This document shows, in pieces, positions 8,985 to 14,084 of a stretch of DNA of 14,238 bases. How positions within the stretch are numbered: the first letter of the stretch is position 1; the number at the start of each line of letters is the position of its first letter. A program made the position numbers and the translations under genes. This DNA is from Candidatus Odyssella thessalonicensis (GTDB lineage: Bacteria > Pseudomonadota > Alphaproteobacteria > Bin65): assembly GCA_005240015.1 (NCBI GenBank), contig SBBV01000424.1, forward strand, positions 1-14,238. The letters run 5' to 3'. The notes under the pieces were generated by a model. It was given only the letters and a program-made list of their open reading frames with translations. It searched no databases and had not been told where the DNA came from.

Positions 8985-9104
8985 ATGATGGACATGAGCC
9001 AAATGTCGATGGGTATGGGCATCGGAATGGGCGTGCTCTACCTCGCGCTTCTCGTCCTCGTCGGCCTCGGGATTGCAGCCCTGATCAAGTACCTGCGTTC
9101 GTAG
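8985..9104 (+). CDS. Met-rich single-pass membrane microprotein of the copper-efflux module
   Basis: 39 aa. The N-terminus is strikingly methionine-rich (MMDMSQMSMGMGIGMG: eight Met in 16 residues) and is followed by one hydrophobic helix (VLYLALLVLVGLGIAALI) and a short basic end (KYLRS). The topology would put the Met cluster on one face of the membrane, fitting Cu(I)/Ag(I) binding through thioethers, as in CusF, CusB and CusA. AGAGG with a 6-nt spacer precedes ATG 8985. A small hairpin (9107-9127, one bulge) follows the stop. It is the first gene of the + strand run leading to CusB/CusA, so a copper-chaperone or pump-accessory role is inferred. No named family is recognised. An ATG one codon later (8988) is an equally good start. 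Confidence 0.65.
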   Translation: MMDMSQMSMGMGIGMGVLYLALLVLVGLGIAALIKYLRS

Positions 9105-9189: not shown

Positions 9190-9552
9190 ATGTGCTATGC
9201 AATGCCGATGTTCCGCCGCGCCCTCGCTCTATTCCTCGCCGCCGTGCTCGTTTTAGGCTGGACGGGCGCGATCGCTGCGACCGGCTGCGGCGCACCCACG
9301 GGTAAGGCGGCGTCCTCGCTCTCCGCGCTGCCCGGCGGATGCGGCACCTGCGAGGAAGACGAGAACAAGAGCCAGCCGCTGCAAGGCTGCGCCGTACTGG
9401 CCTGCACGGCCGGCTGCGTTTCCGGACCCAGCACGGCGGCCGAGGCAGCGCCCGGCCTGCGGCTCGTTGCGGCAGCGGAGAAGGCCGTGCCGGCGCCGCA
9501 CGATTCGCTGCTCGCGCGCGCGATTCCGCCCGACCACCCGCCACCCCGCTGA
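9190..9552 (+). CDS. exported Cys-rich leader protein, CutF/CruR (DUF2946)-like candidate copper-sensing uORF
   Basis: Up to 120 aa. An N-terminal basic-plus-hydrophobic export signal (FRRALALFLAAVLVLGW) is followed by a short periplasmic part. Its cysteines are C33, C51-x-x-C54, C67 and C72-x-x-x-C76. The C-terminus is proline-rich (IPPDHPPPR, 112-120) and ends at the stop. Published CutF and CruR proteins are short exported uORFs that sense copper with a few cysteines, have a C-terminal stalling-like motif and control translation of the next copper gene. Here the next gene is cusB, and its RBS can pair with this gene's stop region (9550-9563). Starts at ATG 9202 or 9208 are possible; the latter gives the most typical signal peptide. 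No Shine-Dalgarno is obvious. Family membership is my inference from layout and motifs, not from alignment; a plain periplasmic copper-binding protein is the alternative. Confidence 0.65.
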   Translation: MCYAMPMFRRALALFLAAVLVLGWTGAIAATGCGAPTGKAASSLSALPGGCGTCEEDENKSQPLQGCAVLACTAGCVSGPSTAAEAAPGLRLVAAAEKAVPAPHDSLLARAIPPDHPPPR

Positions 9553-9688
9553 TCCCACTCCGGCAAGCACGCCGCGTGACGCAGGTCTCGCGGCGGCTTG
9601 AGCGCGCGCGCATCGGCGTGCGTGCCCTCGAACGGCCTCGGTTGCTGCCGCCCTCGCGCGCCGGCACGCCCGACCGGAGTTGGAATCA
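9550..9688 (+). promoter_or_regulatory. candidate stem sequestering the cusB ribosome-binding site
   Basis: The segment TGATCCCACTCCGG (9550-9563) begins at the stop codon of the leader gene. It can pair with 9674-9688, which holds the cusB Shine-Dalgarno GGAG (9676-9679) and reaches the A of its ATG. The core is a perfect 7 bp (ACTCCGG with CCGGAGT), extended by six more pairs with one mismatch and one bulge. The 110-nt interior has two local hairpins (9570-9576/9589-9595 and 9615-9621/9664-9670). GCACGCC occurs twice (9567-9573 and 9664-9670), so two mutually exclusive pairings with GGCGTGC are possible. A ribosome paused on codons 117-119 (PPP) would cover the left arm. Confidence 0.55.
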
Positions 9689-10971
9689 TGAAAAAGTTTC
9701 CGTTTCGCCTCACCGCCTACGTTGCCGTGCTCGCGATCGGCATCGCCGCCGGCGCCGCCGCGGTCGAGCATCTGCGCCCGTTGTTCACGGGGACGCGGAC
9801 CGCAGCCGCGGCACCGCCCGAGACCGCGCCGCCCGACAAGGGCAAGCGGCGCATCCTCTACTACAAGAATCCGATGGGTCATCCGGACACGTCACCGGTG
9901 CCCAAGAAGGATTCGATGGGGATGGACTACATCCCCGTCTACGAGGGCGAGGAGGACGATGCCGGCGCGATCAAGGTCAGCGCCGACCGCATCCAGAAGC
10001 TCGGCGTGCGCACCGAGGCGGCCCAGTTGCGCCCGCTCGCGCGCACGATTCGCGCCACCGGCACGGTGCAGATCGACGAGGCGCGCCAGGTGGTGATCGC
10101 TCCGCGTTTCGACGGCTACATCGAGAAGCTCCTCGTCGCGCGCACCGGCGACACGGTGAGGAAGGGCCAGGCGCTGGCCGAGCTCTACAGCTTCGATCTC
10201 CATCGCGTGCAGGTCGAGCACTTCAATCTCGGGCCGCGGCCGATACGCACCGGGCCGAGCCAGGAGCTGGGCCCGCTCTACCGCCTGCGCAATCTCGGCA
10301 TCGCCGAGGAGGACCTCGAGCGCATCCAGAAACAGGGCCGCGCCAGCCGCACCGTGCCGCTGCGCGCGCCGATCGCCGGCGTGGTGCTGGAGAAGAAGGC
10401 GGTGGAGGGCATGCGCGCCGCGCCGGGCGAGCTCTTGTTCCGCATCGCCGATCTCTCGACGGTGTGGATGATCGCCGAGGTGTTCGAGCAGGACCTCGCC
10501 GAGATCGCGCCCGGGCAGACGGTCGAGGCGACGTTGCTCGCCTATCCGGGCCGGCGCTTCCCGGGCAAGGTGACGTTCGTCTATCCGACGATCACCGCCG
10601 CCACGCGCACGGCGCGCGTGCGCATCGAGCTGCCGAACCCCGACGGCGCGCTCATGCCCGACATGTATGGCACGGTCGCCGTCGCCTCCGGCGCGGCGCG
10701 CGCACTCACGGTTCCCGACAGCGCCGTGATCGACAGCGGCACGCGCCGCGTCGTCATCGTCGAGAAGGGCGAGGGCCGCTTCGAGCCGCGCGAGATCAAG
10801 ACCGGGCGGCGCGGCGACGGCCATGTCGCCGTGCTCGAAGGTTTGAGCGAAGGCGAGCGCGTCGTCGTCGCCGCCAACTTCCTCATCGACGCCGAGAGCA
10901 ATCTCAAATCGGCGCTGCGCGGGCTCGCCAAGGACAAGCAGGCCAAGGCCGGCGAGGAGCAGAAGCCGTGA
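9688..10971 (+). CDS. cusB: CusB-type RND efflux periplasmic adaptor subunit (Cu/Ag)
   Basis: 427 aa. Membrane-fusion protein linking an RND pump to an outer-membrane channel and handing Cu(I)/Ag(I) to CusA. An N-terminal anchor or signal helix spans about 8-25. The heavy-metal-binding segment of CusB proteins follows at 58-85 (YYKNPMGHPDTSPVPKKDSM, then GMDYIPVY), with M63, M77 and M79 matching the metal-binding methionines in spacing. After it come a barrel-sandwich (lipoyl-like) domain, a short helical hairpin and beta-barrel domains (VVIAPRFDGYIEKLLV, LRAPIAGVVLEKKAVEGM, DLSTVWMIAEVFEQDL). ATG 9688 is chosen over an upstream TTG at 9598 because it opens MKKFPFRLTAYVAVLAIG and has GGAG 8 nt upstream. 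That RBS can be masked by pairing with the leader stop region. Its stop overlaps the cusA start by 4 nt (GTGA). Confidence 0.93.
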   Translation: MKKFPFRLTAYVAVLAIGIAAGAAAVEHLRPLFTGTRTAAAAPPETAPPDKGKRRILYYKNPMGHPDTSPVPKKDSMGMDYIPVYEGEEDDAGAIKVSADRIQKLGVRTEAAQLRPLARTIRATGTVQIDEARQVVIAPRFDGYIEKLLVARTGDTVRKGQALAELYSFDLHRVQVEHFNLGPRPIRTGPSQELGPLYRLRNLGIAEEDLERIQKQGRASRTVPLRAPIAGVVLEKKAVEGMRAAPGELLFRIADLSTVWMIAEVFEQDLAEIAPGQTVEATLLAYPGRRFPGKVTFVYPTITAATRTARVRIELPNPDGALMPDMYGTVAVASGAARALTVPDSAVIDSGTRRVVIVEKGEGRFEPREIKTGRRGDGHVAVLEGLSEGERVVVAANFLIDAESNLKSALRGLAKDKQAKAGEEQKP

Positions 10972-13900
10972 TCGCCGCGCTCATCCGCTGGTCCGCGCGC
11001 AACCTGTTCCTCACGCTGTTCGCCGCCGGCGTGGCGCTGGCGGCGGGCGGCTACGCGCTCTCGCGCATCCCGCTCGATGCGGTGCCCGACCTCTCCGACA
11101 CGCAGGTCATCGTCTACACCGAGTATCCGGGCCAGGCGCCGCAGGTGGTCGAAGACCAGGTCACCTATCCGCTCGCGACCGCGCTGCTCGCCGTGCCGCG
11201 CTCGCGCGTGGTGCGCGGCTTCTCCTATTTCGGCGTTTCGTTCGTCTACGTGATCTTCGAGGAGGGCACCGACATCTATTGGGCGCGCAGCCGCGTGCTC
11301 GAATATCTCAACACCGCCACCGGCAAGCTGCCGAAGGGCGTCACGCCCTCGCTCGGGCCCGATGCCACCGGCGTGGGCTGGGTCTTCCAATACGTGGTGC
11401 AAGGCGCGCAGCGCAGCCTGGCCGAACTCCGCACCGTGCAGGATTGGTACGTGCGCTACGGCCTCGCCAAGGCCGAAGGCGTCGCCGAGATCGCGAGCGT
11501 CGGCGGCTTCGTGCGCCAGTTCCAGGTGACGGTGAACCCGCGCGCGCTGCAGGCGCAGGGCCTCTCGCTGATGAAGGTCGTCCAGGCCGTGCGCCAGGCC
11601 GGCACCGATTTCGGCGGGCGCACGGTCGAGCTGGCCGAGACCGAATTCGTGGTGCGCGGGCGCGGCTACATCCGCAACCCCGCCGACCTCGAGGACATCG
11701 TGCTGAAGACCGAACGCGGCACGCCAGTGCTGCTCAAGAACGTGGCCCGCGTCGAGTTCGGGCCCGACGAGCGGCGCGGCATCGCCGAGCTCAACGGCGA
11801 GGGCGAGGCCGTGAGCGGCATCGCCGTGCAGCGCTTCGGCCAGAACGCGCTCGGCGTGATCCGCAGCGTCAAGGCGCGCATCGCCGAGATCGCGGCGAGC
11901 CTGCCCGAGGGCGTCAAGATCGTCCCGGTCTACGACCGCTCCGATCTCATCAAGCGCGCGATCGACACGCTGTCGTGGACGCTGCTCGAGGAATTCCTCG
12001 TCGTGGCGCTGGTCTGCGCGATCTTCCTGTTCCATGCACGGAGTGCCCTTGTCGCCATCGCCGTGCTGCCGGTGGGCCTCCTGATCGCGATCGCGCTGAT
12101 GGATGTGTTCAGCATCGGCTCGAACATCATGAGCCTCGGCGGCCTCGCGATCGCGATCGGCGCCATGGTCGATGCAGCGATCGTGATGATCGAGAACGCG
12201 CACAAGCACATCGAGCGCAATCCCGATGCGCCGCGCACGCGCGTGCTCATCGACGCGGCGGCAGAGGTGGGTCCATCGCTGTTCTTCAGCCTGCTCATCG
12301 TCACGGTCTCGTTCCTGCCGATCTTCGCGCTCGAGGCGCAGGAGGGTCGCCTGTTCAAGCCGCTGGCCTGGACCAAGACCTTCGCCATGGCCGCGGCGTC
12401 GCTGTTGTCGGTGACGCTCGTTCCCGCGCTGATGGTGCTGTTCATCCGCGGCAAGATCCGGCCCGAGGCGCAGAACCCCATAAACCGCGCGCTGTTGGCG
12501 CTCTATCGCCCGGTGATCGGCGTCGTGCTGCGCTGGAAAGGCCTGACCCTCGTCGCGGCCGCTACCGTTGCCGGCGTCACGGTGCTGCCGGTCCTGCGCC
12601 TCGGCTCGGAGTTCATGCCCAATCTCAACGAGGGCACGCTCATGTACATGCCGGTGTCACTGCCCGGCCTCTCGGTGACGAAGGCGGCGGAGCTGGTGCA
12701 GCTCCAGAACAAGATTCTGAAGTCCTTCCCCGAGGTGGAGTCGGTGCTCGGCAAGGCCGGGCGCGCCAACAGCGCCACCGATCCGGCCCCGGTCGAGATG
12801 TTCGAGACGATCGTGAACTTGAAGCCGAAGTCGCAGTGGCGCAGCGGCGTCACGGTCGACAGCCTCATGGCCGAGATGGACCGCGCGCTGCGCCTGCCGG
12901 GAATCACGAACGCGTTCACGATGCCGATCAAGGCGCGCATCGACATGCTCGCGACCGGCATCAGGACGCCGCTCGGCATCAAGCTGTTCGGCCCGGACCT
13001 CGCCAACCTCGAGCGGCTCGCACGCCAAGTCGAGCAGGTGGTGCGCAGGGTGCCGGGCACGCGCAGCGCTTATTCCGAGCGCGTGCTCGGCGGCTACTAT
13101 CTCAACATCGAGCCCGACCGCGCCGCGCTCGCGCGCTATGGGCTTACCATCGGCGAGCTGCAGGACACGGTGGCGGCCGCGCTCGGCGGCGAGACGGTTT
13201 CGACCGCCGTGCAGGGGCGCGAGCGCTACGCGGTTGCCGTGCGCTATCCGCGCGAGCTTCGCGACAGCCCCGAGGCGATTGCCGAGAACGTGCTGGTGCC
13301 GATGCCCGAAGGCGGCATGATCCCGCTGGGGCAGGTGGCGAAGCTCACGCGCAGCCAGGGCCCGGCGATGGTGCGCACCGAAAACGCCCAGCTCGCCGTC
13401 TATATCTTCGTCGACATCGAAGGCCGCGACATCGGCGGCTATGTCGCCGAGGCGCAGCGCAAGATCGCGGCCGAGGTGAACATGCCGGCGGGCTATCGTG
13501 CCGTATGGAGCGGCCAGTTCGAATATCTTGAACGGGCGGAAGCCCGCCTTGCCATCGTGGTGCCGGTGACGCTCGCTGTCGTCTTCCTGCTGCTCTATCT
13601 CAACTTCCGGCGCATGACCGAGACGCTGATGGTGATGCTCTCGCTGCCCTTCGCGTTGGCGGGCGGCGTCTGGCTCACCTATTGGCTCGGCTTCAACCTG
13701 AGCGTCGCCGTGGCCGTAGGCTTCATCGCGCTGGCCGGGCTCGCGGCCCAGACTGGCGTCGTGATGCTGCTCTATCTCGACAACGCGCTGGCCGAGGAAA
13801 GGGCGCGCGCACAGGCCGAAGGCCGCGCGCTCACCCGCGCCGATCTCCGCCACGCCGTCATCGCCGGCGCGGTCGAGCGCTTGCGCCCGAAAGTCATGAC

Positions 13901-14084
13901 CGTCGCCGCGATCATGGCCGGGCTGCTTCCGCTGATGTGGAGCGAGGGCACCGGCTCGGAGGTGATGCGCCGCATCGCGGTGCCGATGGTGGGCGGCATG
14001 ATCTCCTCGGCGCTGCTGACGCTCGTCGTGATCCCGGCGCTCTACACGGCCGTGAAGACGTGGCAACTGAAATTGCGACGGTAG
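10968..14084 (+). CDS. cusA: CusA-type heavy-metal (Cu/Ag) RND efflux transporter
   Basis: 1038 aa, full length for the HME-RND family. Proton-driven inner-membrane trimeric pump exporting Cu(I)/Ag(I). GTG start at 10968 overlaps the cusB stop; GAGGAG lies 8 nt upstream, so translation is probably coupled. The N-terminal helix and VPDLSDTQVIVYTEYPGQAP opening are typical. The TM4 signature AIGAMVDAAIVMIENAHKHI carries D402, matching the proton-relay Asp. The three periplasmic metal-ligand methionines are M561 (LMYMPVSLPG), M611 (PVEMFET) and M660 (RIDMLATGI), spaced 50 and 49 as M573/M623/M672 in E. coli CusA. This points to monovalent Cu/Ag rather than the Zn/Co/Cd of CzcA. C-terminal RPKVMTVAAIMAGLLPLMW and GSEVMRRIAVPMVGGM are family hallmarks. 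No outer-membrane channel gene follows in the window. Confidence 0.96.
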   Translation: MIAALIRWSARNLFLTLFAAGVALAAGGYALSRIPLDAVPDLSDTQVIVYTEYPGQAPQVVEDQVTYPLATALLAVPRSRVVRGFSYFGVSFVYVIFEEGTDIYWARSRVLEYLNTATGKLPKGVTPSLGPDATGVGWVFQYVVQGAQRSLAELRTVQDWYVRYGLAKAEGVAEIASVGGFVRQFQVTVNPRALQAQGLSLMKVVQAVRQAGTDFGGRTVELAETEFVVRGRGYIRNPADLEDIVLKTERGTPVLLKNVARVEFGPDERRGIAELNGEGEAVSGIAVQRFGQNALGVIRSVKARIAEIAASLPEGVKIVPVYDRSDLIKRAIDTLSWTLLEEFLVVALVCAIFLFHARSALVAIAVLPVGLLIAIALMDVFSIGSNIMSLGGLAIAIGAMVDAAIVMIENAHKHIERNPDAPRTRVLIDAAAEVGPSLFFSLLIVTVSFLPIFALEAQEGRLFKPLAWTKTFAMAAASLLSVTLVPALMVLFIRGKIRPEAQNPINRALLALYRPVIGVVLRWKGLTLVAAATVAGVTVLPVLRLGSEFMPNLNEGTLMYMPVSLPGLSVTKAAELVQLQNKILKSFPEVESVLGKAGRANSATDPAPVEMFETIVNLKPKSQWRSGVTVDSLMAEMDRALRLPGITNAFTMPIKARIDMLATGIRTPLGIKLFGPDLANLERLARQVEQVVRRVPGTRSAYSERVLGGYYLNIEPDRAALARYGLTIGELQDTVAAALGGETVSTAVQGRERYAVAVRYPRELRDSPEAIAENVLVPMPEGGMIPLGQVAKLTRSQGPAMVRTENAQLAVYIFVDIEGRDIGGYVAEAQRKIAAEVNMPAGYRAVWSGQFEYLERAEARLAIVVPVTLAVVFLLLYLNFRRMTETLMVMLSLPFALAGGVWLTYWLGFNLSVAVAVGFIALAGLAAQTGVVMLLYLDNALAEERARAQAEGRALTRADLRHAVIAGAVERLRPKVMTVAAIMAGLLPLMWSEGTGSEVMRRIAVPMVGGMISSALLTLVVIPALYTAVKTWQLKLRR

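Follow-up and report, generated by a model that had tools for sequence, protein, structure and literature searches.

The closest described system is CutF of Rhodobacter capsulatus. Its Cys motif, Pro motif, Sec signal, and anti-Shine-Dalgarno (anti-SD) sequence have been tested by mutation (PMC9973294). The same paper lists 5,334 CutF-like proteins in 2,804 proteomes, although such leaders have been tested in very few organisms. Among the gene neighbors that it lists are OEP, CusA-type, CusB/CzcB (HlyD_D23), and CusF genes, and the intergenic regions were analyzed there for their length (PMC9973294). The main-text parts consulted describe no SD pairing, covariation, or stop-codon-anchored anti-SD across relatives. 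A literature search limited to titles and abstract openings found no report of such a stop-anchored clamp. A second copper-responsive leader is CruR, to which the first-pass annotation of our locus had drawn a relation. That relation is not supported: CruR acts by another route, in which copper triggers Rho termination (PMC9426467).

Here we describe a locus in a window of 14,238 nt (the whole stretch of DNA that was analyzed). We think it rather probable that positions 9190 to 9688 form a functional CutF-type translational switch for a cusBA copper/silver pump. The first-pass annotation had described the leader as seemingly wired to an RND pump. A CusBA-type pump does follow the leader, but the arrangement is not new, because CutF-like genes next to RND genes are already listed (PMC9973294). 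The window is a new member of this known group. What is new is a conserved clamp, anchored at the stop codon, in the RND-linked class.

The locus and its pump genes

The features are listed in Table 1. The upstream open reading frame (uORF), cusB, and cusA are all on the + strand. There are no further genes between the uORF and cusB, and the intergenic region is 135 nt. The GTG start of cusA overlaps the cusB stop.

Table 1. Features of the locus (positions in the window)
Feature	Position	Strand	Remarks
CutF-family uORF	9190..9552	+	120 aa, ATG..TGA
Candidate pausing site, Pro-Pro-Pro codons 117-119, then Arg and stop	9538..9546	+	Read from the sequence; pausing putative
Predicted clamp, left arm, starting at the uORF stop codon; anti-SD ACUCCGG at 9557-9563	9550..9563	+	
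Intergenic inner part, several local hairpins	9564..9673	+	Prediction only
Predicted clamp, right arm CCGGAGUUGGAAUCA; cusB SD GGAG at 9676-9679 and first AUG base	9674..9688	+	
cusB, RND periplasmic adaptor, 427 aa	9688..10971	+	PF16576, 1e-68
cusA, RND transporter, 1,038 aa, GTG start	10968..14084	+	TIGR00914 CusA/CzcA, 1175.7 bits

The next gene had been read as a Cu/Ag efflux adaptor, and the searches bear this out. Its product matches the CusB family, its closest solved relative is E. coli CusB (5.4e-48), and CusA is encoded beside it. The NCBIfam CusB model gives it 186 bits, under the model cut-off of 390. Against solved structures, the window CusA scored 1149.8 bits with E. coli CusA and 566 bits with ZneA. 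Its Met residues in YMP, VEM, and IDM align with Met residues of E. coli CusA, which we take to be the copper/silver-binding methionines. Homology supports the reading of cusB and cusA as a CusBA-type Cu/Ag RND pump.

A short Met-rich ORF (39 aa, MMDMSQMSMGMGIGMG...) lies upstream of the CutF-type ORF, at 8985-9104 on the + strand. It has one hydrophobic stretch, and a Pfam search gave no match above the cut-off. It may be a member of the same copper operon. An Rfam search gave no match. The reading of the region as a repeat element was rejected; elsewhere in the genome there are just two partial matches, of 30 to 35 bp.

The leader protein

The leader has the features first ascribed to it, an exported-looking, Cys-rich product with a Pro-rich end. 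It contains a CxxC at residues 51-54, Cys 67, and a CxxxC at residues 72-76 (C72-TAG-C76), and its C terminus is IPPDHPPPR followed by the stop. The published rule for CutF-like proteins asks for a length below 150 aa, a PP among the 15 C-terminal residues, a Sec signal peptide, a CxxxC, and a next same-strand gene within 1,000 nt. The N terminus is a candidate Sec signal, signal-peptide-like by a hydropathy and basic-residue filter. The product has 120 aa and ends in PPDHPPPR, C72-TAG-C76 supplies the CxxxC, and cusB starts 135 nt downstream.

The product had no match in Pfam or NCBIfam at E ≤ 1. The first-pass annotation had pointed to DUF2946 and to CutF-like proteins as places to look. The former gave nothing, with no DUF2946 (PF11162) match at E ≤ 1 and no RAPP in the tail (RAIPPDHPPPR). 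The latter gave a match to a profile of CutF relatives. With a profile from eight relatives, built without the window ORF, the ORF scored 30.7 bits, and the best of 2,000 shuffles reached 13.8; the test is not fully independent, as seven of the eight relatives were found via searches using the window ORF and R. capsulatus CutF itself was not included. A profile from six cutO-linked relatives gave 25.7 bits, compared with 19.2 for the best shuffle. The fit to the profile agrees with the CutF-type logic proposed at the outset. It supports the window ORF as a CutF-type uORF, homologous by profile to ORFs preceding cutO-like oxidases.

Relatives of the leader were sought at several depths. A search with the single ORF sequence in 11 genomes of the family retrieved just itself at E ≤ 0.001, with weak matches at E ≤ 0.1. 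In 385 genomes of the class it matched in 17 at E ≤ 0.01, its own genome included. Five of these loci were inspected, and one (L104) is a CutF-like ORF preceding a multicopper oxidase. The same search of plasmids gave no match at E ≤ 1. A three-sequence profile matched in 10 of the 385 class genomes at E ≤ 0.001, again with its own genome included. It found 11 other places, and in 9 of them a cutO-like multicopper oxidase is next. Six of these cutO-like genes were checked with Pfam and match Cu-oxidase families. The tails of the cutO-linked relatives read, for example, PPEPHPPRTLI or DPYPPR. Seven genomes in the order of genome G066 were also searched, and G066 alone matched.

Some further loci were observed along the way. 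The Roseomonas mucosa plasmid pTT14-5 (CP099476.1, about 104718-104906; L134) has an unannotated CutF-like ORF ahead of a multicopper oxidase gene. The genome of the window has a second CutF-like ORF (L155, G000:C541:476-820), 235 nt before two redoxin/thioredoxin-like genes. Folding predicts no pairing of its stop-proximal arm with the next SD. In L143 and L156, a CutF-like ORF comes first, a small gene second, and a cusB-like gene third, and an OEP gene is absent between them. The small gene is YtkA-like by Pfam in L143 and by reading only in L156.

The predicted clamp at the locus

The pairing first proposed between the stop codon and the cusB SD, of seven contiguous and six flanking pairs, is present in full. 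The predicted stem has 13 pairs, with a core of 7 (9557-9563 with 9674-9680) and 6 flanking pairs (9550-9555 with 9682-9688). It spans from the uORF UGA to the first base of the cusB AUG and is predicted to bury the cusB SD. It is the closing stem of the minimum-energy fold of 9550-9690 (141 nt). This fold has -81.4 kcal/mol (z -3.88), and none of 200 shuffles was as stable.

A duplex between the first 20 nt counted from the stop codon and the last 20 nt ahead of cusB has a predicted energy of -19.6 kcal/mol. This was equaled by 51 of 5,000 dinucleotide shuffles (about 1%) and by 157 of the 14,218 20-mers in the window. With narrower segments of 14 and 15 nt, chosen post hoc, those at 9551 and 9550 come 2nd and 3rd among 14,224. 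When the whole segment was folded, 2 of 200 shuffles equaled it in the number of SD pairs formed with the stop-proximal arm. At a chance level of about 1%, the stem of this single locus is suggestive, modest evidence when taken alone and not decisive.

Formation of the clamp in the calculations depends on the folding context. Its probability is at least 0.88 for RNAs with a 5' start at 9500-9550 and a 3' end no later than 9720. It is at most 0.04 if the RNA starts at 9440-9460 and ends by 9720. It is at most 0.29 for all nine 5' starts if the RNA ends at 9840. Of 71 SDs compared, the best partner of the window arm is its own, and the arms of three other loci pair better with the window SD than the window's own arm does. 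A genome of the same genus has a cusB with 79% identity over the last third; its contig begins inside cusB, and a search for a leader in that genome gave none.

Conservation of the clamp in RND-linked leaders

Two betaproteobacterial leaders (L030 and L047) have an anti-SD right after the stop codon. Together with L058 they seeded a profile that was searched over 349 genomes of one order (centered on G616), and 42 genomes matched at 1e-5. The resulting loci are called set B here (L159-L187), with a hold-out (L229-L247). For set B, 29 of 30 fetched loci were usable; L158 was dropped as its next gene was not found.

In set B (n = 29), the stop-proximal 20 nt paired with its own next SD at -15.1 kcal/mol, against -10.4 kcal/mol when partners were permuted (z -8.4, p 5e-5). 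With one locus per family (n = 15), z was -5.8. The excess was 2.0 to 4.8 kcal/mol for segments starting -6, 0, +3, and +6 nt from the stop codon. It was below 1 kcal/mol at ten other offsets from -60 to +36 and is confined to the neighborhood of the stop codon. The own SD was the single best partner in 5 of the 29 loci, with a median rank of 3 of 29. It is rarely the best because all of these SDs share a GGAG-like core. The matched pairs next to this core are of many pair types.

The hold-out consisted of 19 matches not fetched before, 6 of them from genomes already represented among the earlier fetched loci. It gave -17.5 against -11.7 kcal/mol (z -7.9), and all 19 loci were at -10 kcal/mol or better. 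In whole-segment folding of the 48 loci, the expected number of arm-SD pairs was 4 or more in 45, with a mean of 7.7 against 1.7 for shuffled sequences. Taken one by one, 32 of the 48 reached p ≤ 0.05.

The next gene is an OEP gene (PF02321) in 46 of the 48 loci. The folding failures are L176 (next gene CusF), L182 (without a Pfam match), and L186 (OEP). The clamp was found by folding in 45 of the 46 OEP-linked loci, and two of the three failures are the loci without OEP. A sample of 20 loci was followed further downstream, and in 18 the OEP gene is succeeded by cusB and cusA; in one of the two exceptions just 570 bases of contig remained.

These comparisons support a stop-anchored anti-SD clamp that is conserved, with matching base changes, in one RND-linked class of CutF-like leaders. 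The window shares the layout of this predicted clamp.

The leader ends of set B are also regular. PP lies exactly 10 residues ahead of the stop in 25 of the 29 leaders, and 15 of the 29 end in FRI or FRN. By the geometry, a pause at this PP would not cover the arm, and a pause at termination would. The fixed PP and the F-R-I or F-R-N ends hint that the nascent chain acts while the ribosome stands on the stop codon. Pausing may differ between set B and the window, as PP in set B is mostly 10 residues upstream and PP in the window is terminal.

Loci without the clamp

A curated set of CutF-like loci retained 53 of 65 candidates, and 12 were dropped as near-duplicates or for an unclear next start. 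The clamp as a general CutF-like feature was rejected on this set. It beats shuffles at p ≤ 0.05 in just 3 of the 53 loci (the window, L012, and L047). Tests by class took 42 of the 53, with classes assigned by reading and some of them checked with Pfam. No stop-anchored excess was found in CusF-type loci (n = 8, p 0.81) or in YtkA-like loci (n = 9, p 0.78). The OEP-linked loci of this first set showed a weak excess (n = 15, p 0.044). The cutO-type loci, which are the near protein relatives of the window ORF, had no stop-anchored clamp (n = 9, p 0.79). Conservation of the stem in relatives, which the first-pass annotation had made one measure of its proposal, is divided. A stem of this layout is kept with matching base changes in set B and the hold-out, and it is absent from the cutO-type near relatives.

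Thirty DUF2946 (CruR-type) loci from the same order, treated with the same next-start rule, showed no preference for their own SD at the stop codon (z -0.21, p 0.41). At offsets -12 and -6, which fall in the final codons of the leader, these loci (L188-L217) pair with their own SD about 2 kcal/mol better than with those of other loci. Leaders like L140, L148, and L151 were matched in 9 of 234 genomes. Six such loci were checked, three of them the query loci. Their duplexes were -7.1 to -12.5 kcal/mol, and a clear clamp was not found among the six.

The proposed switch

Copper sensing, pausing, and release at this locus are proposed by analogy with CutF. With little copper, the nascent chain would be exported and the ribosome would finish and leave. 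The clamp would then close, and cusB would be poorly translated. With copper in the periplasm, the Cys motif would bind it while the chain is still attached to the ribosome. Translation of the copper-bound chain would linger at the terminal PPPR-stop. The footprint of the lingering ribosome would cover most of the left arm, so that the closing stem could not form. Translation of cusB, and then of the overlapping cusA, would follow. If CutF is a guide, the pause would last longer with copper, and the clamp would open.

The position of the clamp in the model suits a ribosome on the last codons or on the stop codon. A ribosome footprint has its edge at about +15 nt. For a ribosome whose P site holds Pro119 or Arg120, this would place the edge at 9559-9562, with most of the left arm covered. 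Masking the left arm lowered the computed cost of opening the SD-AUG region from 14.7 to 8.5 kcal/mol with the 3' end at 9720, and from 12.3 to 10.2 kcal/mol with the 3' end at 9750. The SD stayed mostly paired under the mask (unpaired probability at most 0.21). It is freed just partly because a weaker hairpin, formed with early cusB codons, replaces the clamp. A ribosome held at PPP had been expected to release the cusB RBS. By the footprint estimate it would cover most of the arm, and the calculations back exclusion of the clamp in part, with the SD left largely paired. Ribosomes on the uORF and on cusB would presumably remove the competing structures.

Alternative explanations

Under plain translational coupling, cusB would need ribosomes that reach the uORF stop, with no nascent-chain copper sensing, and the Cys/Pro protein would do something else or nothing. 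The conserved element does sit at the stop codon, and termination there by any ribosome would open the clamp; a pause at the usual PP of set B would miss the arm. Coupling leaves aside what the leader proteins found have in common, which is a start that looks like an export signal, Cys residues, and PP in the tail. The best-studied relative requires its Cys and Pro motifs (PMC9973294). We regard coupling as unlikely, while giving it real weight. In a different account the small protein serves the pump as a copper chaperone in the periplasm, and the stem is an mRNA-stability element or an incidental GC-rich structure. This is improbable. Own-SD matching at the stop recurs ahead of other pump operons of the cusCBA type (by folding, in 45 of 48 loci), and R. 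capsulatus CutF acts solely in cis and was undetected in cells (PMC9973294). The Cys motifs and the export-signal-like start would suit a chaperone all the same, as would the match of the single-locus stem by about 1% of shuffles and the strong local hairpins between the arms.

Very improbable, in our judgment, is attenuation as in CruR. Copper would here change translation of the uORF and thereby cause Rho to end transcription within the 135 nt ahead of cusB. The copper-responsive uORF CruR, which has a long intergenic region, does work in this way (PMC9426467), but the uORF product here has no DUF2946 match and no RAPP, and the 30 DUF2946 loci have no clamp at the stop codon. Repression by copper would make sense for an importer and not for an efflux pump. 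The intergenic region in the window is also predicted to be highly structured, whereas the CruR leader needs a lack of structure in part (PMC9426467). Our preferred reading remains the CutF-type switch.

A broader reading is that one geometric device controls the RND copper pumps of several proteobacterial lineages. The anti-SD would lie just past the stop of a CutF-like leader, only a ribosome held at or near the stop would uncover the SD, and copper on the nascent chain would gate termination or the last codons. We advance this tentatively, as a possibility that falls short of an even chance. The PP at a fixed distance from the stop and the FRI or FRN ends of set B speak for it. If the device is shared, the window would stand as a separate instance of it, connected here to cusB.

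Control of copper efflux pumps is usually ascribed to transcriptional regulators. If the reading is right, a conserved, covarying RNA clamp at the stop codon of a copper-sensing peptide would add a post-transcriptional layer to copper efflux. The clamp also gives a precise test, by compensatory changes in its two arms, of how CutF-like leaders act on RND pumps.

Comparison with known systems

CutF-CutO of Rhodobacter capsulatus (PMC9973294; PMC8456105) resembles the window in having a small Cys-motif protein, exported-looking in the window, with a Pro-rich end, encoded just upstream of the next gene. In both, an intergenic stem shields the next SD, by prediction in the window. The next gene is a Tat-exported oxidase in CutF-CutO and cusB of an RND pump in the window. 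The predicted clamp of the window runs from stop codon to start codon, whereas its nine cutO-type relatives are without such pairing. Published CutF-like genes before RND genes (PMC9973294) have the order seen here, a CutF-like ORF and then an OEP, CusB/CzcB, or CusA-type gene.

In Bordetella pertussis, the uORF of CruR (PMC9426467) comes first in its operon, responds to copper, and has a Cys motif and a Pro-rich end; the window ORF is alike in layout. CruR differs in being a DUF2946 protein with RAPP, and in its case copper leads to Rho termination and an importer operon is repressed. In SecM, VemP, and MifM, arrest of the leader nascent chain opens a stem ahead of the next gene (PMC9973294), as is proposed here. 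These leaders sense export activity, not metal.

The set B leaders share with the window an anti-SD directly after the uORF stop that is predicted to pair with the next SD, in RND operons. They belong to another CutF-like subfamily, with tails such as PPIAIRNCCFRI before the stop, and their next gene is OEP and not cusB. Their intergenic regions are 61 to 94 nt in 40 of the 48 loci, compared with 135 nt in the window.
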